From assembly GCA_016744575.1 (NCBI GenBank), contig JADGEC010000028.1:1-32574 (forward strand): a stretch of 32,574 nt of DNA, written 5' to 3'. The position numbers and the translations under genes are program-made. Source of the stretch: Sulfurimonadaceae bacterium. GTDB taxonomy: Bacteria > Campylobacterota > Campylobacteria > Campylobacterales > Sulfurimonadaceae. Below, one piece after another: positions 9,812 to 21,323 of the stretch; positions within the stretch are counted from its first letter, which is position 1, and every line of letters begins with the position of its first letter. Under the pieces are notes generated by a model, which did no database searches, had not been told where the DNA came from, and was given only the letters and a program-made list of their open reading frames with translations.

Positions 9812-12226
9812 ATGTCACTAAGATATATCCGTTTCTATGATGAGATAACCAACGATGATGTTGCCCTGATCGGCGGAAAGAACGCCAGCCTGGGAGAGAT
9901 GTATCAGAACCTTCTACATAAAGGGATCGATGTCCCTTTCGGTTTTGCCACGACCAGCGAAGCCTATTTCTACTTTATGGAAGAGGCTGGACTCACTACA
10001 TCCATCGATGATGTGATAGCTACTTTGGATACGACCGACATGACTCAGCTTGCCGCAGCCGGAGAACGCATCAGAGATGCATTTCTTCAAGCCGAGATGC
10101 CAAAAATACTCTCCAAAGAGATAAAAGAGGCCTACTCCCGGCTCAATGCTTTTTACAATACCCAGACACTCGATGTAGCCGTACGCTCCTCTGCGACAGC
10201 AGAGGACCTTCCTGATGCCAGTTTTGCCGGACAGCAGGAGACCTTTTTGAACATCTCCGGTGAAGAGAGGGTCATAGAGCATATCCAACGCTGCTATGCT
10301 TCACTCTTTACCGACCGTGCCATCAGCTACCGCCACTCACATGGGTTCGAGCATGCCCAAGTCGCCTTATGTACCGGAGTCCAGAAGATGGTCCGTAGTG
10401 ACCTTGCATCAAGCGGAGTGATGTTCACCATCGACCCTGACACCGGTTCAGACAGACTCATAGTCATCAATGCCATCTGGGGACTTGGTGAGAACATCGT
10501 CGGGGGTACTACCAACCCCGATGAGTTCAATGTCTTTAAACCGACTCTTAAAGATGGTTTTGCGACCATCTTGAAACATGGACTCGGGAGCAAAGCACTT
10601 ACCATGACCTATGACCCCGACGACCTTTCGCAGATCATCAACACCGACACTGCACTTAAGCAGCAGCAGCACTACTCTATCTCCGACGATGATGTCACTA
10701 GCCTTGCACGCTACGGCGTAGTGATCGAAGAGCACTATAGTAAACGTGCAGGCCATACGACTCCGATGGATATAGAGTGGGCAAAAGATGGCATAGATGG
10801 AAAGATCTACATAGTCCAGGCAAGGCCTGAGACTGTCCACAGTAAAAAGGTACAGGGGCGTTCACTCGTACTCAAAGACCATGTACTTGAAACAGGGCAG
10901 GAGAAGAAGGTACTGCTTACCGGGACCGCTGTAGGCGAGAAGATCGCTACAGGAGTCGTCCAGCTTATTCGTGACAAGGCTGAGTTCAAAGCATTTCAAA
11001 GCGGCAATATTCTCGTAACGGACAATACAGACCCAGACTGGGAGCCAGTCATGAAAAAAGCGGCCGCTGTCGTCACGAACCGGGGAGGACGCACCTGTCA
11101 TGCGGCCATCGTGACCAGAGAGATAGGTATACCTGCCATTGTCGGAAGTACCACTGCCACTGATATACTTACTGACGGTATGGCTGTGACAGTCAGCTGT
11201 GCAGAGGGAAGTACCGGCTTTGTCTACGAAGGTGAACTTCACCACAGTGTCAAGATGATGGACCTCGGAATACTCACGGAACCCAGAACCCACCTTTATA
11301 TGAACGTCGGTGACCCGCAAAAGGCATTTGCTTTTTCAAAGTTCCCCAATCACGGAGTCGGACTCGCACGGATGGAGTTCATCATCAACAGTGCCATCAG
11401 AGCACACCCCAATGCGCTAATAGACCTCTATGAAGGTAAAAAGATCGACGATCAAGAAGCGATCGAACTCCTCACCCAAGAGTACGATGACCCTAAAAGC
11501 TTCTTCATCGACCGACTCTCTGAAGGGGTCGCCACCATCGCCGCTGCGTTCTATCCTAAGCCTGTGATCGTCCGTACCTCTGACTTTAAATCCAATGAGT
11601 ACAGATATATGCTCGGCGGTGAACGCTACGAGCCCGATGAAGAGAACCCGATGATCGGTTACAGAGGAGCAAGCCGTTACTACTCTCCAGGCTATAAAGA
11701 GGCCTTTGAGTGGGAGTGTCAAGCCCTTAAACGTGTCCGAGATGAGATGGGCTTGACAAACATGATAGTCATGATCCCTTTTGTCCGTACACCCCAAGAG
11801 GGAAAGAACGTCATAGAGATCATGGCGTCACAGGGCTTGATACAGGGAGTCAACGGCCTCAAAGTCTATGCCATGTGCGAGATACCGGCCAATGTCATCC
11901 TTGCTGACGAGTTCTTAAAGGTCTTTGACGGCTACAGCATCGGCTCAAACGATCTGACTCAGTTGACACTGGGTGTAGATCGTGACAGCGAACTCATCGC
12001 CCATGTCTTTGATGAACGAAATGAAGCGGTCACACGGATGATAAAGATGGCTATCGATGCCTGTAAAAAAGCAGACAAATACATCGGTATCTGCGGCCAG
12101 GCCCCTTCTGACTACCCTGAGATCACCGAGTTTCTGATCAAAAACGGCATCGACTCCATCTCACTTAACCCTGACTCGATCGTCAAGACCTGGAAACTGG
12201 TAACGGAACTCGAGTCCAAAAGATGA
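9812..12226 (+). CDS. ppsA: Phosphoenolpyruvate synthase
   Basis: An 804-residue enzyme that converts pyruvate and ATP to PEP, AMP and phosphate, the entry step of gluconeogenesis. The N-terminal ATP-binding domain begins with GGKNASLGEM and contains VRSSATAEDLPDASFAGQQE. The swivelling phosphohistidine domain has GGRTCHAAIVTRE with the catalytic His430. The C-terminal TIM-barrel PEP/pyruvate domain has GIGSNDLTQ-like SIGSNDLTQL and CGQAPSD with Cys761. The length (about 800) and these motifs favour PEP synthase over pyruvate phosphate dikinase (about 880). ATG is preceded by AGGAG. The stop overlaps the ATG of an alanine-dehydrogenase remnant (ATGA), so the two once formed an operon. Confidence 0.95.
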   Translation: MSLRYIRFYDEITNDDVALIGGKNASLGEMYQNLLHKGIDVPFGFATTSEAYFYFMEEAGLTTSIDDVIATLDTTDMTQLAAAGERIRDAFLQAEMPKILSKEIKEAYSRLNAFYNTQTLDVAVRSSATAEDLPDASFAGQQETFLNISGEERVIEHIQRCYASLFTDRAISYRHSHGFEHAQVALCTGVQKMVRSDLASSGVMFTIDPDTGSDRLIVINAIWGLGENIVGGTTNPDEFNVFKPTLKDGFATILKHGLGSKALTMTYDPDDLSQIINTDTALKQQQHYSISDDDVTSLARYGVVIEEHYSKRAGHTTPMDIEWAKDGIDGKIYIVQARPETVHSKKVQGRSLVLKDHVLETGQEKKVLLTGTAVGEKIATGVVQLIRDKAEFKAFQSGNILVTDNTDPDWEPVMKKAAAVVTNRGGRTCHAAIVTREIGIPAIVGSTTATDILTDGMAVTVSCAEGSTGFVYEGELHHSVKMMDLGILTEPRTHLYMNVGDPQKAFAFSKFPNHGVGLARMEFIINSAIRAHPNALIDLYEGKKIDDQEAIELLTQEYDDPKSFFIDRLSEGVATIAAAFYPKPVIVRTSDFKSNEYRYMLGGERYEPDEENPMIGYRGASRYYSPGYKEAFEWECQALKRVRDEMGLTNMIVMIPFVRTPQEGKNVIEIMASQGLIQGVNGLKVYAMCEIPANVILADEFLKVFDGYSIGSNDLTQLTLGVDRDSELIAHVFDERNEAVTRMIKMAIDACKKADKYIGICGQAPSDYPEITEFLIKNGIDSISLNPDSIVKTWKLVTELESKR

Positions 12227-12377
12227 CCATCGGTATTCCCAAGGAGGTAAAGACCGACGAGTTTCGCGTCAGTGCCACAGCCTCTGATGTGGCACAGCTC
12301 ATCAAAGATGGTCATAGAGTCCTTGTCCAAAGCGGTGCCGGAGTGGGGAGTGGTCTTAGTGATGCACTCTACTATGA
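12223..12377 (+). pseudogene. ald: Alanine dehydrogenase, N-terminal remnant
   Basis: The first ~51 codons read MTIGIPKEVKTDEFRVS and QSGAGVGSGLSDALY, the typical N-terminus of alanine dehydrogenase (normally ~370 residues; NAD-dependent alanine to pyruvate). Similarity ends at about 12377. The frame then continues with unrelated residues to a stop at 12418-12420, because the following DNA is the antisense of a truncated permease gene. The pyruvate-binding and NAD-binding parts are missing, so the product is not functional. The ATG overlaps the ppsA stop. The preserved sequence suggests a recent loss. Alanine to pyruvate to PEP would have been a sensible pair of steps. Confidence 0.8.
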
Positions 12378-12379
12378 AA

Positions 12380-12553
12380 AGGATACCGGGCACTCAGCTC
12401 GGCATGACTCAAGGCCGTAAAGAGTACAACGACACTGGCAAGCATAAAAGCGGCAGGTACATAGGCCCCAGTTATCGCCGCCATCTTAGCGATGAGTACA
12501 TAGATGCCAGCACCAAAGATATTTCCCAATCCGAAAAAGATCAGCATAGGCAA
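12380..12553 (-). pseudogene. Amino-acid permease (APC family), N-terminal remnant
   Basis: Minus-strand codons encode FFGLGNIFGAGIYVLI, GAYVPAAFML and ALSHAELSARYP. This is the first and second transmembrane region of APC-superfamily amino-acid permeases, which normally have 12 segments and 430-480 residues. Similarity stops at about 12380, where it meets the truncated alanine-dehydrogenase gene head-on. The first in-frame start is TTG (12553) or ATG (12547), with no good ribosome-binding site, so the true original start is unclear. About 85% of the gene is lost. A role in alanine uptake would fit the neighbour but is speculation. Confidence 0.75.
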
Positions 12554-12566
12554 CGTGACATCACGC

Positions 12567-12595
12567 TTGACACAAATTGACTAAAGCACTATAAT
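12567..12595 (+). promoter_or_regulatory. Perfect-consensus sigma70 promoter
   Basis: TTGACA at 12567-12572, exactly 17 bp, then TATAAT at 12590-12595. Both hexamers match the sigma70 consensus at all positions with the optimal spacer. It points to the AMMECR1 gene, whose coding start lies 66-87 bp downstream. A GACAC/GTGTC hairpin lies in the predicted 5' leader around 12628-12643. Such a full match is rare in Campylobacterota, which usually lack a -35 box. Confidence 0.75.
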
Positions 12596-13256: not shown

Positions 13257-15164
13257 TCAATACTTATCTATTGCCAAGAGAGCATTTTCATTCAGGTACT
13301 CTATATACTCCTCTTCTCTTACCGAGTGGGAGAAAAGATAACCCTGATAGAAGAGGCAGCCCTGCTTGATGAGGTAGTCACGTTGGTACTCCTCTTCAAC
13401 ACCTTCGGCGATGACCGCTATACCCAGGGTCCTTCCCATCGCGACGATCGTATCTAACAAGATGGCTTTTCTCCCATCTTTGGGAATCGCATCGACAAAA
13501 CTCTTATCGATCTTGATCGCATCTATTGGTAGACGGTGCAGGTAAGCAAGCGATGAGTACCCTGTCCCAAAATCATCAAGACAGATGTGTACACCCAGCT
13601 CTCTGATCTTCTCAAGTCTTCTGATCATCTCATCACTGTTCTCCATCATCACGCTTTCTGTGATCTCTATCGTAAACTGTTTGGGATCGATATCATTCTC
13701 GTCCAAAGCATCTTTGATGGTCTTAAAGAGATCTCCGTGCTGAAACTGCCTTGTCGAGATGTTGATAGAGAGGTGTACATGTGTGTTCGTCGTCCTGTTT
13801 ATCCTGGCTATGGCTCGACACCCCTCTTCGATTATCCAGGCTCCAAGCCTTAAGATGAAACCGGTATTTTCCGCTAGGGCGATGAACTTATCCGGAAGTA
13901 TCATGCCCATCTGCGGATGATCCCATTTTATAAGGGCTTCAGCCCCTATGATCCTATCGGTGGCAAGTTCCATCTTGGGTTGATAAAAAAGTTTAAACTG
14001 ATGCGTCCGCAGTGCCTGCGCCATATCCTGTTCAAGCCGCATCTCCTCATGAACGATCTGGTTTAGCTCATCTGTAAAGAAACTAAAGTTGTCACGTCCC
14101 AGCTCTTTGGCACGATACATCGCGATATCGGCATTTTTCATCAGTTCGATCATCGTCTTACCATCTTGAGGGTAAAGCGAGATCCCCATACTGGTCGAGA
14201 CCTTCAACTCATAATCATCCATTATCCAGATCTGGCGCATCAACTCCATGATCTTGCCGATAGTCACTGCCAGATAGGCCTCATCGACATTGGTAAGCAC
14301 GATGATGAACTCATCGCCGCCTATGCGTGCAAAGATATCCTCTTCACGTATGTTCGGACTGATACGTGCTACGACCTGCTGCAGAAGTCGGTCACCTACA
14401 TCATGCCCCAACGTATCGTTGATCTGTTTGAAGTGGTCCAGATCTAGAAAGAGCATCGCAAAACTCTTCTCATGGCGTTTGGCACTTGCAAGCAGTGTCT
14501 GTAGCTGTTCATCCAGGTAAAACCTGTTAGATATCCCTGTCAGATCATCATGTTTTGCCAGATGAAAGATCTTCTCCTGCGCTGCATACTGCTTTGTTAT
14601 GTCCCTTGCTATCCCCTCTAAGGCTTCCACCTCTCCTGTGGCACTTAGCAGAGGTAGCTCCGTTATCTCAAGATATCGGACAGAGCCATCTTTATGGTAG
14701 ATACTGAGTTCATAAGGAGGCTGTCGTTCACTCGAGAGTGCTCTCTGCGTATACTCGTACACTTTTGCGTTCATGGGATCATCACTCAGAAAATCGCCAT
14801 AGTATTGCATAAACTCCTCTTTGGTGTAGCCAAGGATATTAGTGATAGAGTCACTCAGATCTGTAAAGACACCTTCTGTGTCATGCACATAAAAGAAGTA
14901 GTGGTTTTGAAGGTTCTCGATCAGTCGATGGAACCTCTCCTCACTTTTGGCAAGTTCTTTTTGCGATTTGCGTTCAAGCTCCTGATAAAGTCCCTGCATC
15001 TCTTTCGATGAGATGGTCAAGGTGTTTTCCAGAAGCAGACGGTCATCATCACCATCACGGTATGTCTGATCGACTAAGCGTAGAAGACGCTTGATCTGTG
15101 CACTAGTGCATTCGACATCACCACAACCGATCTTTTTGATCTGACGTTTAAGAAGTCGGTGCAT
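13257..15164 (-). CDS. PAS-GGDEF-EAL c-di-GMP turnover protein
   Basis: A 635-residue cytoplasmic protein with no membrane segment. A coiled-coil-like N-terminus (to ~95) is followed by a PAS domain (~95-215), then GGDEF (~225-380) and EAL (~390-630). The diguanylate cyclase active site is ARIGGDEF, with a preceding RxxD inhibitory site (REED). The phosphodiesterase side keeps EALIKW, NIS, TES, DDFGTGYS, KIDKSF, AEGVEE and YQGYLFS. Both activities could therefore be functional. ATG at 15164 has GGGAG just upstream; a GTG one codon earlier is the alternative. Its start overlaps the end of the FIST gene by 17 bp, so it is co-translated with that sensor, which probably controls the direction of c-di-GMP turnover. 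Confidence 0.93.
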   Translation of the reverse strand: MHRLLKRQIKKIGCGDVECTSAQIKRLLRLVDQTYRDGDDDRLLLENTLTISSKEMQGLYQELERKSQKELAKSEERFHRLIENLQNHYFFYVHDTEGVFTDLSDSITNILGYTKEEFMQYYGDFLSDDPMNAKVYEYTQRALSSERQPPYELSIYHKDGSVRYLEITELPLLSATGEVEALEGIARDITKQYAAQEKIFHLAKHDDLTGISNRFYLDEQLQTLLASAKRHEKSFAMLFLDLDHFKQINDTLGHDVGDRLLQQVVARISPNIREEDIFARIGGDEFIIVLTNVDEAYLAVTIGKIMELMRQIWIMDDYELKVSTSMGISLYPQDGKTMIELMKNADIAMYRAKELGRDNFSFFTDELNQIVHEEMRLEQDMAQALRTHQFKLFYQPKMELATDRIIGAEALIKWDHPQMGMILPDKFIALAENTGFILRLGAWIIEEGCRAIARINRTTNTHVHLSINISTRQFQHGDLFKTIKDALDENDIDPKQFTIEITESVMMENSDEMIRRLEKIRELGVHICLDDFGTGYSSLAYLHRLPIDAIKIDKSFVDAIPKDGRKAILLDTIVAMGRTLGIAVIAEGVEEEYQRDYLIKQGCLFYQGYLFSHSVREEEYIEYLNENALLAIDKY

Positions 15165-16299
15165 CACTCTCCCATATCACGGTAAGTGTCATCGTCTGAT
15201 TATGCAGATCACATATTCCCGAGGCAAGCGGAGATATCTCACCATAAGAGTAGAAGCCTATCTGTTTTGTCTGAACAGGCAAGACATCCAGCGTGGCTTC
15301 AAGCTCCTCCTCGATACGCTGTTTCAACACTAATCTACGCCCTACACAGCTAATGGCAATACTGACTATCGGCTCGTCGGTATGACCATCGAGTCGTATC
15401 ATCTCAGCCGCATCAGATGCCCCATCTATCAAACGATCATAATTGGCTTTCATCAGCATCACAAAACTTCCCTCAGGCACATCTCCAGCGAAAGTGATGG
15501 ATTGGGTAGCTTCATCGATCGCCAGTATCGTACGGACTTTACTCTCTGCTGCATCTGATGTGGCTTTTAGTTCCAAAGGAAAGAGCAAGCCGGTCGCAGG
15601 AAGCCCATCGGCCTTATCAGCGAGATAACGTTTGTAGATCTCCAGAGCCGGCTGCCCATCAAGTTCATAGAGGATGTTGTCTGTAGCTCTTGTCACTACA
15701 CGCTCGATACCCAGACGGTCCCAGCCCCCTTTGGAACCATGACTGATATGAATAGCATCTCCATAAAAACCGACAGCCGTTATAAATCCCGTAGTCGCCT
15801 TACCATCAATGAGGACCCAGGTCTCTTCAAAACGGTCATCATCCCCGGCAAGTCCTCCTGTGACGATGACATCCTGAGGAAGTACGGAAGCGATACCTCG
15901 TGTCAACTGTGAGCCGTTGACATGCAGACCATCTGATAAAACGAAGATCGCTTTAAGCTCATCATCAAAAAGCTCATTGGCCAAGAGCACACCATCCGCA
16001 TAAGAGTCCACAGTAGAAGCGAGCAGTTCAGCTACAGCGCGAATACGGGTAGTAGCGAAATGCATCACCGAGACGACCAGACTATCTTCTCGGAGTTCAT
16101 CCTGGACGATCTCGCCTGCAGTAGATGCACCGATGATAGTAGATAAGGGAAATGAGGCTTGGAGGTCGGACAAAGGCTTTTCGATCAGTGCTTTTTTAGC
16201 CGTCCCAAAAACCAGGACCACTGTCTTTTCTGAGTCAAGTGAAGGGTCTATCGGTCTGTCCCAATCATCTTTGTAGGTATAAATCTCCGATAACATCAT
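15148..16299 (-). CDS. FIST-domain sensor protein (NosP-like candidate)
   Basis: A 383-residue soluble protein with an N-terminal FIST domain (LVFGTAK, IIGASTAGEI, FVLSDGL, VTGGLAGDD, AVGFYGDAIHISHGSKGGW) and a C-terminal FIST_C domain ending in FYSYGEISP and LHNQTMTLTV. Length and motif order are typical. FIST proteins are sensory input modules encoded next to signalling enzymes. NosP proteins of this family bind haem and sense nitric oxide for partner kinases or c-di-GMP enzymes. The His in HISHGSKGGW is a possible haem ligand, but I cannot confirm haem binding from sequence. ATG at 16299 (or 16296) follows AAAGG. It overlaps and probably regulates the downstream PAS-GGDEF-EAL protein. Confidence 0.85.
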   Translation of the reverse strand: MMLSEIYTYKDDWDRPIDPSLDSEKTVVLVFGTAKKALIEKPLSDLQASFPLSTIIGASTAGEIVQDELREDSLVVSVMHFATTRIRAVAELLASTVDSYADGVLLANELFDDELKAIFVLSDGLHVNGSQLTRGIASVLPQDVIVTGGLAGDDDRFEETWVLIDGKATTGFITAVGFYGDAIHISHGSKGGWDRLGIERVVTRATDNILYELDGQPALEIYKRYLADKADGLPATGLLFPLELKATSDAAESKVRTILAIDEATQSITFAGDVPEGSFVMLMKANYDRLIDGASDAAEMIRLDGHTDEPIVSIAISCVGRRLVLKQRIEEELEATLDVLPVQTKQIGFYSYGEISPLASGICDLHNQTMTLTVIWESDAPTS

Positions 16300-16812: not shown

Positions 16813-18387
16813 CTAGATGATCTCCAAAAACTCTTTTTTCAGTGCATCTTTATCGATCTGCTTATCATGTAGTGACTTGAGCGGCATGTTCTTTCTGTAG
16901 ACGATCTGCTCAGGCAGCATATAGTTTGGCATATGCTTCTTTAGCTCGAAGAGGATCTCATTACGGGCCAACTCTGTGGAAGCGCCATAGACCAGGACTA
17001 TCTCCTCTTCTATATCTGCATTGGGAACAGAGAAGACAGCACACGCTTTGATAGCTGGTATGTTATTAGCGACCACACTCTCTATCTCATGGGGACTGAC
17101 GCGATAACCCTGAGTCTTGATCATATCATCTTTTCTCGATACGAAATAGATATAGTCCTCTTCATCCTTATAGACATAATCCCCACTAGCGACGACCAGT
17201 TCATCGGTGAGTTGTCCTTCTGGCTTTAGGACTTTATCTAGTATTTTGATGCTTTTGAAGCGTTGCGCTGTCTCCTCCGGAGAGTTCCAGTAACCCTTGT
17301 AGATAGAAGCACCCCGATGGATGAGTTCACCGACTTCTCGAGGCTTACAAGCTTCACCTTCTTCGTTGATGATGTAGAGCTCCACATCAGGTATGGCTTT
17401 TCCTATGGAGTTGGGGCGGATATGGATCTGCTGAGGATCAAGATAGGCGGAACGGAAAGCCTCCGTGAGTCCATGCATAGAGTAAAACTGTGCATCTTTG
17501 TAATGCGTCGTGATGTTCTTGACCATAAGCGGTGTGATGTTCCCGCCTGAAGAGGTGATGATCCTGATAGCTTTGAGATGTTCAGGACTTGGGATACGAT
17601 GCGGGTCCTCATCAAACATCTGAGTGATATGGATCGGCATCAATGGAAGCACCGTCACTCTATCATTGATAAGATGCGTAAAGAAGTCTGAAGGCAGTAC
17701 GAACTTATGTATGGCTAGTGTCGCTTTTCTGTAAAGCGTGACAAAGATCTGGTTGAGTCCATAATCAAGGTTGAACGAGAGTAGACCTGAGATGACATCA
17801 TCACTCTGTACATCAAGATATTTTGAGACGATCCTTGCGCCATCGATCAGAGCACGATGGGTGATGACAATGCCTTTAGGATTACCCGTTGAGCCAAAAC
17901 TGTAGGTGATAGCGGCATTGTCATGACCTTTAAGATCACAGACGATATCACCGACAAAGAACTTGGAGATCTCCTCAAATGAGACATCAGCACCCTCAGT
18001 CGCTTCATAAGTAATGATCTTTCCATCAAAATCGATTGCTTTGATAGTATCTATCTTCATCTTGTCGGTGATGATGCAGGAGATATCACAGTCATTGATG
18101 ATGTGCTCGACCTGCTCGTTCTTAAGTAGCCGCGTGATCGGGACGAGGACATACTCGGTAGAGAGCAGTGCCAAGATCGCGATGACCTGTTCGATACTTT
18201 TGTTCGAGTAGATACCGACACGACTCCCTTTTGGAAGGTTCAGCGTATCAAGGTATTGAGCGACCTGATTGACTTTGACCAGCAGTTGGGCATAAGTCAG
18301 TTGCTTAGCATCAAGCTTAAGTGCGACCTTATCAGGATGACTTGCACTGGCGATTTCCAACAGGTTTCGTATACTGTTTACTGACAT
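16813..18387 (-). CDS. AMP-forming acyl/aminoacyl ligase linked to B12 mutase genes
   Basis: A 524-residue member of the ANL adenylating superfamily, which activates a carboxylate as acyl-AMP and transfers it to CoA or a carrier thiol. Core motifs: YSFGSTGNPKG (phosphate loop), HGLTEAF (A5), SGDYVYKDEEDY (A7), SRKDDMIKTQGYRVSP (hinge and A8), and HDKQIDKDALK holding the A10 lysine. The region around GYWNSPEETAQRF and IKTQGYRVSPHEIE reminds me of the ligase family linked to exosortase-A systems, which usually sits with a PLP decarboxylase, absent here. Last gene of the operon. Its ATG is 1 nt after the MutL stop, with AAGGAG in the MutL end. The substrate is unknown; a mutase product such as 3-methylaspartate is an inference. 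Confidence 0.8.
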   Translation of the reverse strand: MSVNSIRNLLEIASASHPDKVALKLDAKQLTYAQLLVKVNQVAQYLDTLNLPKGSRVGIYSNKSIEQVIAILALLSTEYVLVPITRLLKNEQVEHIINDCDISCIITDKMKIDTIKAIDFDGKIITYEATEGADVSFEEISKFFVGDIVCDLKGHDNAAITYSFGSTGNPKGIVITHRALIDGARIVSKYLDVQSDDVISGLLSFNLDYGLNQIFVTLYRKATLAIHKFVLPSDFFTHLINDRVTVLPLMPIHITQMFDEDPHRIPSPEHLKAIRIITSSGGNITPLMVKNITTHYKDAQFYSMHGLTEAFRSAYLDPQQIHIRPNSIGKAIPDVELYIINEEGEACKPREVGELIHRGASIYKGYWNSPEETAQRFKSIKILDKVLKPEGQLTDELVVASGDYVYKDEEDYIYFVSRKDDMIKTQGYRVSPHEIESVVANNIPAIKACAVFSVPNADIEEEIVLVYGASTELARNEILFELKKHMPNYMLPEQIVYRKNMPLKSLHDKQIDKDALKKEFLEII

Positions 18388-18388
18388 C

Positions 18389-19564
18389 TTAACTCCTTAG
18401 TCCATATGTCCAGATCTCATAATCGCTATCGAGAAGGATCGTCGGTGTGTGATGAAAGTGAAGGATCTTCTTATAGAAAAAGAGAATGATCTCATGCACT
18501 TCATCAAAACTCAGCACCTTCGTGATCCCACCGGTAAGGACAATACTGTTTAGTCTCTCCAACGCCAGTTCTACATAAGCGTTATGGTGTTTCGATACCT
18601 TATAGAGTACCAGAAAAATAGAGAGCTGCATCAAAATACGGGTAGCTTTCTCACTGTTCTCTTCAAGGATGTTCTCTGTCACGTTCAAAAAGGCCAACAG
18701 TTCATAGACAAACTCATTGTTCTTGGCACTAAAGACTAGGCTCTCGCGTGATTTATAGACGCCCAGTTTTTTAAAGACGAGCCGGTCATATCCACTTTCG
18801 GTCAGGATATTATCATTGACGAGATCTCGGCTATAGTGGATGTCTGTCGTAGCCCCACCGATATCGACCAAGATAAAAGGATCAGCGACATCGAGTCGCT
18901 CATTCAGAAGTGGCAGCGCCTGATTAACGATGTAAGGAGTCGAGAAGATCTGATTAGAAGTGATCTCATAAAGACTCTTTATCTCCTCTTTGCCCATGAT
19001 ATCTGCCTGATAGAGATCGGTCAGATAACCTTTTAGCTCCTCTTCACGTATCTGGAGTTTATCGGAGATGATATTGCCGAGCACTTTTAGTGAAGGCAAC
19101 TGCTCTTGTAAAAAGGTACTGTTTCTCTTACTGCCGACATAAACAACGTTCTGATAGCTTACTTCTTGCAGATACGCTATAAGGTTCTCATCAAAGATAT
19201 TCTCCACACTATCTATACCACCGACGATGATGACTACATCGATCATCTCACGCGGAGGTACGGCTTCCTTTATCTTTGGATAGAGCACGGTGTCGATGAT
19301 GTTGATCCCCGCGTTAAAAGCGATGTTCACTGCATATTTGAGACTAAAAGAGTTGGTCAATCCAATGATCAGCGTACTAAGCCCGCCATTAGCAGAACTG
19401 CAGATATGGATGTCTTCTTTCGCATAACGTCCTATGACACTACTACATTCACGTTTTAAGTCATCGATGATGTCTATATCGAAATTGCGAAAGTGCTGAC
19501 CGATGTTACCATCTTCACTGATCTTAAAGTAGGTACTCCCAACATCTATGAGAAGTTTACTCAT
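18389..19564 (-). CDS. glmL: MutL/GlmL-like actin-fold ATPase, mutase partner
   Basis: A 391-residue protein of the ASKHA fold: phosphate-1 loop IDVGSTYFK at the N-terminus, phosphate-2 DIGGATTDIH in the middle, and adenosine motif VLTGGITKV near the C-terminus. This pattern is that of GlmL/MutL, encoded between or beside glutamate-mutase subunits and thought to help reactivate or assemble the B12 enzyme. The clostridial protein is around 460 residues, so this one is shorter. It overlaps the preceding mutase E gene by 4 nt (ATGA), and the ligase follows after 1 nt. It is not the DNA mismatch-repair MutL, which has a GHKL ATPase fold. Confidence 0.85.
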   Translation of the reverse strand: MSKLLIDVGSTYFKISEDGNIGQHFRNFDIDIIDDLKRECSSVIGRYAKEDIHICSSANGGLSTLIIGLTNSFSLKYAVNIAFNAGINIIDTVLYPKIKEAVPPREMIDVVIIVGGIDSVENIFDENLIAYLQEVSYQNVVYVGSKRNSTFLQEQLPSLKVLGNIISDKLQIREEELKGYLTDLYQADIMGKEEIKSLYEITSNQIFSTPYIVNQALPLLNERLDVADPFILVDIGGATTDIHYSRDLVNDNILTESGYDRLVFKKLGVYKSRESLVFSAKNNEFVYELLAFLNVTENILEENSEKATRILMQLSIFLVLYKVSKHHNAYVELALERLNSIVLTGGITKVLSFDEVHEIILFFYKKILHFHHTPTILLDSDYEIWTYGLRS

Positions 19565-20922
19565 AACATCACCCCAATATCTCTGATTATCTTGTCGACG
19601 ACTTTCTCACCTTCGGCAAGTCTTATCTTTGAGCGTTCATACGCAAAACTTTTATCGGAGATAGGGACCTTCCCTCTTTTATAGATACGGATGTTGCTGT
19701 CGTCGTCGCGCACCGTGATCATCTCGTTGGCATTGATGATATGCGGCGAGAAAGGGATCTCAATATAACCGTTTTTGATGGAGTTGAAGACCTGTCGCCA
19801 CATCGTATCTGCCCCATCATTGAAGACCGCTTCGAGGATCTCATGGACTTCGTTCGTGAGATTCTCTTCTTCCTCTTCATCACTCACCTGCGGCACACCT
19901 TTGAGCATGTTCAGCGTATATTTCACACTCGCCACTGCCAGAGCATTCGCCTCTTTAGTCGGGATACCAAACGCCTCATTGCGCGTTTTAGTGATGATCT
20001 TATCCGCACCGACCATAGCCGCGATGACCGTGCTGGTAGTGATCAGTGAGTCCGAATAGGATTTGTTATACGGAAATGCACCCATCCACTGATGATAGAC
20101 AAGGTTGATAGTCGCATCGTGATGGCCAAACTTGTCGGCATAGTGCCTGGAGAGTCTTTTGATGACATTCGAGGAGACGATGTCTTGCATCATGGAACCC
20201 GTCTGCGAGAAACTGACGGAGAAAGACTTGACACCCTCTTCGAGCGAAAGCAGCATCTCGATGATCTGGATGACGATGACAATAGCCGGTGGTTGCATAG
20301 TCGCGCTGAGCGGTCCAAAAGACTCCCGGTTTATGGGCTCGTTAAGTTCAGAGTACTTCGCCGTGACACGCTCGACGTATTTCCAGTACAAAAAGGCTTT
20401 GTCCATCGGAAAGTTCTTGGAGTATGGCAATAGATAGGTGATAGGACCACCCTCTATCTCAAAGATACCCGAAGCGAGGGCCATCTCGACAAGTAGTCTG
20501 GCATCAGGTGTCCCGTGACGCAGACTGACTGGGGTGTTATAGTGTGTGATCATCTTTCGTGTAGTACGATAACCGTGATTGACCAATGGATAGCCGTTTA
20601 ACATGTCCACATCGTTCTCTTCAGAGAGTGCCAGCATCTTCTTCGCACTGGCATAGTCGTTCAGGCGGGTATTACTGTCAATAGTCAGCGGCAGGACATC
20701 GACATCTGACTCTTTGAACTCACGATAGAGCTCGAAGACTTTGTCATAAGTCGGAAAGCCACCACGGGGCTGGACCAGCATATGCTCCGCATGTTTGAAC
20801 TTATGAGAGATAAAGAGGTCTTTACTGGCCCCTTTTATAAAGGCTTCGACCTCATCAAAGTCAAAGTTGTCGATATACTCGTTCTTAACGATGATCTCGC
20901 GTTCACGCTGTAGCAGACTCAT
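19561..20922 (-). CDS. glmE: Glutamate-mutase-like catalytic subunit E
   Basis: A 453-residue TIM-barrel subunit of an adenosylcobalamin-dependent carbon-skeleton mutase (glutamate to 3-methylaspartate in the known enzyme, EC 5.4.99.1). Comparing from memory with Clostridium GlmE, the arginine claw that holds the two carboxylates is kept: Arg53 (QPRGG), Arg86 (DSNTRLN), Arg135 (LRHGTPD). Glu157 (EGGPITY), Tyr163, Tyr167, Lys312 and Glu316 (KTRNEAFGIPTKEAN) are also kept. Spacing between most of these residues is the same as in the clostridial enzyme. That supports a glutamate-like dicarboxylic substrate. It is about 30 residues shorter. It overlaps the S gene and the MutL gene by 4 nt each. 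Confidence 0.9.
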   Translation of the reverse strand: MSLLQREREIIVKNEYIDNFDFDEVEAFIKGASKDLFISHKFKHAEHMLVQPRGGFPTYDKVFELYREFKESDVDVLPLTIDSNTRLNDYASAKKMLALSEENDVDMLNGYPLVNHGYRTTRKMITHYNTPVSLRHGTPDARLLVEMALASGIFEIEGGPITYLLPYSKNFPMDKAFLYWKYVERVTAKYSELNEPINRESFGPLSATMQPPAIVIVIQIIEMLLSLEEGVKSFSVSFSQTGSMMQDIVSSNVIKRLSRHYADKFGHHDATINLVYHQWMGAFPYNKSYSDSLITTSTVIAAMVGADKIITKTRNEAFGIPTKEANALAVASVKYTLNMLKGVPQVSDEEEEENLTNEVHEILEAVFNDGADTMWRQVFNSIKNGYIEIPFSPHIINANEMITVRDDDSNIRIYKRGKVPISDKSFAYERSKIRLAEGEKVVDKIIRDIGVML

Positions 20923-21323
20923 CGTCTCTCCTTCAAGTGTGCTTCGAGCATGTCAAGACCCTCATTAAGGTCGATCTGATGAAAGACAAGATCAAATCCG
21001 TAAGCACGATATCTTGGCCCGATCTCTTCAGCATCCATCTCACCGACACCCAGGTTGCCACCTATCATAAAGACGACTTTACTGAGGTCATACTGACTCT
21101 TTATCAGACTCAGATCACGACACCATCCTTCTGCTTCTCCGTTAAGAGAAGAGATGAGAAGGACATCTGCATCCGTCTCTATGACCGCATCCATAAACTC
21201 TTCGAGATAGGTGTTCACCCCCAGATTAAAGACCTCAAAACCTCGTTCTTGCAGGGAGATGTCTATCAATCTGTTGGCGACGACATGGATATCGTTTCCG
21301 ACGACACCTGTTACTACTTTCAT
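20919..21323 (-). CDS. glmS: Glutamate-mutase-like B12-binding subunit S
   Basis: A 134-residue flavodoxin-like cobalamin-binding protein (known subunit about 137). His13 in GNDIH is the expected lower axial cobalt ligand, followed by SSLNGE (S-x-L) and IGGNLGVG (GG), the other elements of the B12 signature. The usual D-x-H-x-x-G motif reads D-x-H-x-x-A here (Ala16). Together with subunit E it should form the active mutase at their interface. It is the first gene of the operon. The ATG at 21323 has no strong ribosome-binding site. A TAGAAT at 21350-21355 (minus strand) could be the -10 box. No cobalamin riboswitch is seen upstream. This is not glucosamine-6-phosphate synthase, which shares the symbol. 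Confidence 0.88.
   Translation of the reverse strand: MKVVTGVVGNDIHVVANRLIDISLQERGFEVFNLGVNTYLEEFMDAVIETDADVLLISSLNGEAEGWCRDLSLIKSQYDLSKVVFMIGGNLGVGEMDAEEIGPRYRAYGFDLVFHQIDLNEGLDMLEAHLKERR

Follow-up and report, generated by a model that had tools for sequence, protein, structure and literature searches.

We analyzed a 32,574-nucleotide stretch of contig JADGEC010000028.1 from a Sulfurimonadaceae bacterium (the window, by which we mean this whole stretch). It contains a compact operon that encodes the S, E and L components of a predicted glutamate mutase together with an ANL-superfamily ligase-like protein, hereafter LIG. We consider it about an even prospect that these four proteins and an RraA-like protein encoded apart from them make up a five-component module, in which the mutase product 3-methylaspartate is captured and activated by LIG and the RraA-like protein acts in the same pathway.

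A conserved operon of mutase and ligase-like genes

The genes lie on the minus strand between positions 21323 and 16813 of the window, in the order GlmS-GlmE-GlmL-LIG:

20919..21323, minus strand: GlmS-like cobalamin-binding subunit, 134 aa (PF02310, NF002612; match to 1be1)
19561..20922, minus strand: GlmE-like catalytic subunit, 453 aa (PF06368; alignment to 6h9e/1cb7)
18389..19564, minus strand: GlmL/MutL-like reactivating ATPase, 391 aa (PF13941)
16813..18387, minus strand: ANL-superfamily ligase-like protein LIG, 524 aa (PF00501, sister to TIGR03098, VinN-like pocket)

An original prediction, made from the letters of this DNA, had described a four-gene operon joined by two ATGA overlaps and a 1-nt gap, and the open reading frames (ORFs) and junction sequences are exactly so: S and E overlap at GACGATGAGT, E and L overlap at GTTATGAGT, and the TAA of GlmL is followed after 1 nt by the ATG of LIG (GGAGTTAAGATG). 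The conserved linkage that it proposed also held. Among 101 genomes, comprising the window's own and 100 relatives, GlmE was present in 11 and LIG, called at E < 1e-60, in exactly those 11 (Fisher p = 6e-15). In a sample of 80 loci from the GTDB collection, with adjacency counted only where the contig leaves room, S and E were neighbors in 75 of 76 informative loci, E and L in 60 of 69, and L and LIG in 57 of 59. The operon is more than a chance arrangement, since order and linkage are kept across some 80 independent contigs; no conserved gene was found 3' of LIG across the loci compared.

The S and E proteins are strongly predicted to form an adenosylcobalamin-dependent glutamate mutase. GlmS passes NF002612 (162.6 bits against a cut-off of 110), matches the methylaspartate mutase S chain 1be1 at 81.5 bits, and carries the B12 motif N-D-I-H-V-V-A, in which the cobalt-ligating histidine, His13, is conserved and the glycine of the usual DxHxxG is alanine. 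GlmE matches PF06368 (E = 5.5e-118) and scores 382.9 bits against the equivalog model TIGR01503, just below (98% of) its cut-off of 390.1. When mapped by alignment to 6h9e/1cb7, all active-site positions checked were identical to those of the Clostridium cochlearium enzyme: R53, R86, R135, H136, E157, Y163, Y167, K312 and E316 correspond to its R66, R100, R149, H150, E171, Y177, Y181, K326 and E330. We take the equivalents of R66, R100 and R149 to be the substrate-binding arginine triad, and presume roles for the glutamate and tyrosine residues likewise, from general knowledge of glutamate mutase structures. GlmL matches PF13941 (E = 6e-26) and contains the phosphate-binding motifs DVGSTYFK and DIGGATTD; at 391 aa it is shorter than the NCBIfam GlmL models (456-459 positions) and falls far under their cut-offs (NF040745/TIGR01319).

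An RraA-like protein co-occurs with the module

All 11 carriers have an RraA-like gene, as does one incomplete genome from the same genus as the window (p = 5e-13 in the 101-genome sample). Distant RraA homologues occurred in only two non-carrier relatives, and module-free Campylobacterota relatives mostly have no RraA-like gene. In 49 of the 71 loci whose contig leaves room, the gene immediately upstream of GlmS is an RraA-type gene of opposite orientation, and this divergent arrangement is found in gammaproteobacterial loci too. The window's genome (3.59 Mb in 228 contigs) holds its RraA-like gene on a separate contig (G000:C47:15697-16164; locus L104:9698-10168, plus strand), as do four further carriers, and these unlinked copies make the co-occurrence independent of linkage. 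The original prediction missed this fifth component, which lies outside the window.

Linked and unlinked RraA-like sequences score above the RraA cut-off of NF006875, and a [D/E]-X20-R-D metal/catalytic motif is kept in 48 of 48 (24 with D, 24 with E). We take this motif, whose exact definition we draw from general knowledge, to be of the type found in class II pyruvate aldolases and oxaloacetate decarboxylases. As a separate observation, the distant homologue of one module-free relative (G067; L114:6018-7810, translation read by eye) directly follows an isocitrate-lyase-like gene.

LIG combines a VinN-like pocket with drifted adenylation motifs

LIG belongs to the ANL superfamily by its match to PF00501 (E = 5e-63), and its closest NCBIfam family is the exosortase-A-associated ligase TIGR03098 (464.7 bits, under the cut-off of 592.35). 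A search of the PDB with the segment spanning motifs A4 to A6 returned VinN as the top match (E = 1.5e-10; next protein 2e-5), with an alignment that is gapless through the beta13-beta14 loop, the shortened form of which is a hallmark of VinN; the roles of the VinN recognition residues are taken from a review (PMC11253843). LIG D208, Y209, S280 and R312, equivalent to VinN D230, F231, S299 and R331, are invariant over the 59 family members in which conservation was counted, so that, with the conservative change of F231 to tyrosine, four of the five VinN recognition positions are matched or conservatively changed. The comparison with ANL structures that had been proposed therefore yields a VinN-like pocket and not a fatty-acyl one, and it supports an amino dicarboxylate as the probable ligand, most simply 3-methylaspartate held as a beta-amino acid. 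The motifs concerned are as follows:

17872..17907, minus strand: LIG motif A3 (P-loop), aa 161-172, degenerate across the family as Y-S-F-[GAS]-x-x-G-x-[PQ]-[KRN]-G
17749..17781, minus strand: LIG motif A4 pocket LSFNLDYGLNQ, aa 203-213; D208/Y209 equal VinN D230/F231, invariant in 59/59
17434..17481, minus strand: LIG motif A5 and beta13-beta14 loop SMHGLTEAFRSAYLDP, aa 303-318; R312 equals VinN R331, invariant
16843..16875, minus strand: LIG motif A10 region SLHDKQIDKDA, aa 505-515; the canonical lysine position, 510, is Gln

In the LIG family, then, the substrate pocket has stayed fixed while the adenylation motifs have diverged, a natural example of this among ANL proteins. The invariant positions also include K424 (A8 lysine), E309 (A5 glutamate) and R429 (A8 arginine), and A7 is invariant too; a thiolation-switch role of such A8 and A5 residues has been reviewed (PMC11253843). 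When superposed, an AlphaFold model of LIG (predicted local distance difference test score 81.5, predicted TM score 0.80) deviates by 3-4 A from several ANL structures in the thiolation state or with coenzyme A (CoA) bound, and by ~10-12 A from many in the adenylation state, although the conformation that AlphaFold chooses is no evidence of mechanism. These features may mean that LIG is no ordinary adenylating enzyme, and we read them as a warning rather than as proof. Of the claim that the ligase is adenylating, the family label stands, but two of the adenylation motifs are degenerate in the LIG family.

Partners and cofactor supply

The original prediction saw no methylaspartase in the window, and we found none in the genomes searched: PF07476 had no match in the window's genome and TIGR01502 none in 14 other carriers, and mesaconase or lyase genes were absent near the operon. 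The PF07476 matches in other relatives are short and C-terminal, of the type given by enolase-superfamily proteins. A methylaspartase combined with unconserved linkage, and a ligase specific for fatty acids, had both been named in advance as speaking against the prediction; neither was found.

A search for carrier proteins elsewhere in the genome had also been suggested. Three homologues do exist, but none is linked to the operon: one lies beside fatty-acid synthesis genes and two lie inside glycan-type clusters. We accordingly rejected a dedicated carrier protein for LIG. Known cobalamin adenosyltransferases were not supported as a co-selected partner; only 2 of the 11 carriers have one, and neither CobA/BtuR (PF02572) nor the PduO/EutT type (PF01923) was detected in the other nine (G000, G003, G012, G020, G065, G071, G079, G081 and G096), among them the window's genome (G000), which is estimated to be 100% complete. 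Module-free relatives mostly have no PF02572 or PF01923 adenosyltransferase either. Carriers may take up adenosylcobalamin, or the phylum may possess an unrecognized adenosyltransferase. No Rfam match to a cobalamin riboswitch was found in the window or in four loci.

A proposed pathway and its rivals

In the pathway that we propose, GlmS and GlmE, kept active by GlmL, would convert L-glutamate to (2S,3S)-3-methylaspartate with adenosylcobalamin, a step suggested by the conserved active site of GlmE. By holding 3-methylaspartate (or aspartate) as a beta-amino acid in its VinN-like pocket, LIG would then draw it from an unfavorable equilibrium. Most likely, the C4 carboxylate may next be activated and the product passed to CoA, to the acyl carrier protein of housekeeping metabolism or to some other acceptor, which might yield a branched beta-amino-acyl building block. 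The RraA-like protein, transcribed separately, could handle a 2-oxo acid of the same pathway, as its co-occurrence suggests.

Several observations weigh against this proposal. The A3 P-loop is degenerate in the LIG family and the A10 position is lysine in only 30 of 59 members, with Glu, Val, Ser, Leu or, as in the window, Gln in the rest; both points argue against ordinary adenylation. Where VinN has K330, LIG has phenylalanine (F311). No linked carrier, VinO-like pyridoxal phosphate (PLP)-dependent decarboxylase, synthetase or transporter was found by inspection and ORF clustering in ~80 neighborhoods. It is also not obvious that RraA, with 2-oxo acids as substrates, and LIG, with an amino acid, catalyze successive reactions. 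Adenylation and thioesterification of 3-methylaspartate by LIG are therefore uncertain: the degenerate A3 and the unconserved A10 lysine leave adenylation, and with it CoA or carrier loading, not assured. The earlier suggestion that the ligase activates the branched amino acid for such loading keeps the pocket in its favor and loses the motifs.

A somewhat unlikely account is that the five genes form an undescribed B12 pathway outside antibiotic synthesis, in which 3-methylaspartate made from glutamate is held by an ANL-fold protein that works independently of the canonical lysine, and an RraA-type decarboxylase or aldolase leads on to a primary or structural metabolite; the RraA step could for example be 3-methyloxaloacetate to 2-oxobutyrate, part of the old "glutamate mutase" isoleucine route, for which we found no assigned gene. 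Were this so, an ANL protein without its catalytic lysine and an RraA selected alongside it would both gain a metabolic role. We regard as unlikely that LIG has lost adenylation and serves as a sink or sensor for 3-methylaspartate, or that its catalysis is confined to a half reaction, thioester or acyl-transfer, perhaps in partnership with GlmL. The relaxation of A3 and A10 beside an invariant pocket, A5, A7 and A8 fits this, as do the intact motifs of the TIGR03098 sisters (YTSGSTGKPKG and NGKxDR), the rank of L-LIG among the tightest gene pairs, and the better fit of the model to thiolation-state structures, though the modeled conformation, as noted above, is no evidence of mechanism. The window copy, however, retains the P-loop residues S-T-G-N-P-K-G and a lysine, K509, one residue from the A10 position, and the A10 lysine itself persists in half of the family members.

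A route to 2-oxobutyrate and isoleucine, in which 3-methylaspartate is transaminated to 3-methyloxaloacetate and decarboxylated by RraA while LIG plays an accessory binding or regulatory part, seems quite unlikely to us. It would account for the strict co-occurrence of an RraA-like protein with an aldolase/decarboxylase motif, and an AspC/TyrB-type aminotransferase neighbors the RraA-like gene in five gammaproteobacterial loci. The literature also lists a "glutamate mutase pathway" that leads to 2-ketobutyrate: a passage of PMC7476758 traces it to Abramsky 1962 and itself names no genes acting after the mutase. On the other hand, all 11 carriers and 96 of 100 relatives have IlvA-type threonine deaminase homologues, which makes the route unnecessary, and we rejected an IlvA bypass as the module's necessary purpose. 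The aminotransferase gene is linked in gammaproteobacteria only; a search without a positive control found no close homologue of it in Campylobacterota relatives, which leaves it unsupported there as a sixth component, and the invariant VinN-like pocket would have no role. Ordinary glutamate catabolism is the usual destination of the mutase product (PMC4682846), and CoA ligases belong to the same superfamily as LIG, which could then convert mesaconate or a similar C5 acid further along the pathway to its CoA thioester, as happens in the methylaspartate cycle. We consider this very improbable: family models detect methylaspartase in none of 15 carriers (the window's genome and the 14 others), no mesaconase or lyase genes lie nearby, and the pocket retains an amino-group-binding aspartate that an amine-free acid would not need.

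Distribution and genomic setting

The GlmE sequences closest to the window copy come from Sulfurovum and Sulfurovaceae. In midpoint-rooted trees of GlmE and LIG, gammaproteobacterial copies (including Vibrio, Alteromonadaceae, HTCC2143 and Litorilituus) are nested with good support within Campylobacterota, beside Arcobacter/Malaciobacter, and LIG was found in only 4 of 369 sampled gammaproteobacteria. Given this nesting and rarity, the inherited gene set, which some sulfur-oxidizing and related bacteria have in common, has probably also moved horizontally on occasion. In each tree, a copy from a contig labeled Sulfurimonas (L091, JAQIBW010000191.1) is nested among the gammaproteobacterial sequences, a secondary transfer or a case of misbinning. 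Searches for viral copies gave a single insignificant fragment, and those for plasmid copies only TIGR03098-type sisters with identity up to ~34%. Cultured carriers among the loci include Sulfurospirillum diekertiae, S. cavolei, Malaciobacter halophilus and Arcobacter caeni, which makes knock-outs and labeling feasible.

Following LIG in the same orientation is a FIST-domain-like gene (window 15148-16299, minus), and a gene that looks similar by eye (L108:7664-8809) directly follows the unlinked RraA-like gene of G071; this may be coincidence. Translations read by eye further suggest gene remnants at 12223-12580 of the window: a 65-aa alanine-dehydrogenase-like N terminus straight after a phosphoenolpyruvate-synthase-like gene, and a short amino-acid-permease-like fragment on the opposite strand.

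Comparison with known systems

Known settings of glutamate mutase are fermentation, the methylaspartate cycle of haloarchaea and a small number of antibiotics. That a module predicted to make 3-methylaspartate, and lacking methylaspartase, is widespread and transferred among aquatic bacteria that respire implies a new use of this amino acid, and the module offers a strict co-selection test for the metabolic role of an RraA homologue. Fermentative clusters (Clostridium; the E. coli O157:H7 cluster) share the S, E and L subunits and the conserved active site; the module described here lacks their methylaspartase, mesaconase, citramalate lyase and CobA, and has the ligase and RraA instead. The RraA/HMG-CHA aldolase family has been described previously (PMC5065237); the RraA-like proteins resemble it in their NF006875 score and kept motif, and differ in a distribution tied to glutamate mutase.

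TIGR03098 exosortase-A-associated acyl-CoA ligases share YGLTEAFRSTYLDP and FD.GL.Q-like motifs with LIG, but keep TSGSTGKPKG and NGKxDR, which LIG does not, and, unlike LIG, are found in loci of polysaccharide type, some of them plasmid-borne, next to a PLP decarboxylase, a small carrier protein or both. On the Aureimonas plasmid pAU20a (L116:7989-10789), a PLP decarboxylase comes after a TIGR03098-type ligase, and a small acyl carrier protein lies close by; this set resembles VinN/VinO/VinL inside polysaccharide loci and suggests that such systems make an amino-acyl modification.

The closest precedent is vicenistatin biosynthesis, where the glutamate mutase VinH/VinI is paired with the 3-methylaspartate:ACP ligase VinN (PMC11284099), so a mutase-ligase route has a precedent, contrary to what the original prediction had supposed. 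This pairing is already known from macrolactam antibiotic clusters; the version here appears undescribed, in that the open-access literature searched does not describe GlmL, RraA and relaxed adenylation motifs combined without secondary-metabolite machinery. Both systems have mutase S and E genes and an ANL enzyme with a matching pocket and a short beta13-beta14 loop. The present module lacks a linked VinL-type carrier, VinO-type decarboxylase, second ligase, acyltransferase and polyketide synthase, and its LIG differs from VinN by the change of K330 to phenylalanine and by degenerate A3 and A10 motifs. It adds GlmL and a co-occurring RraA-like gene, and its carriers are respiring Campylobacterota together with a small number of gammaproteobacteria.

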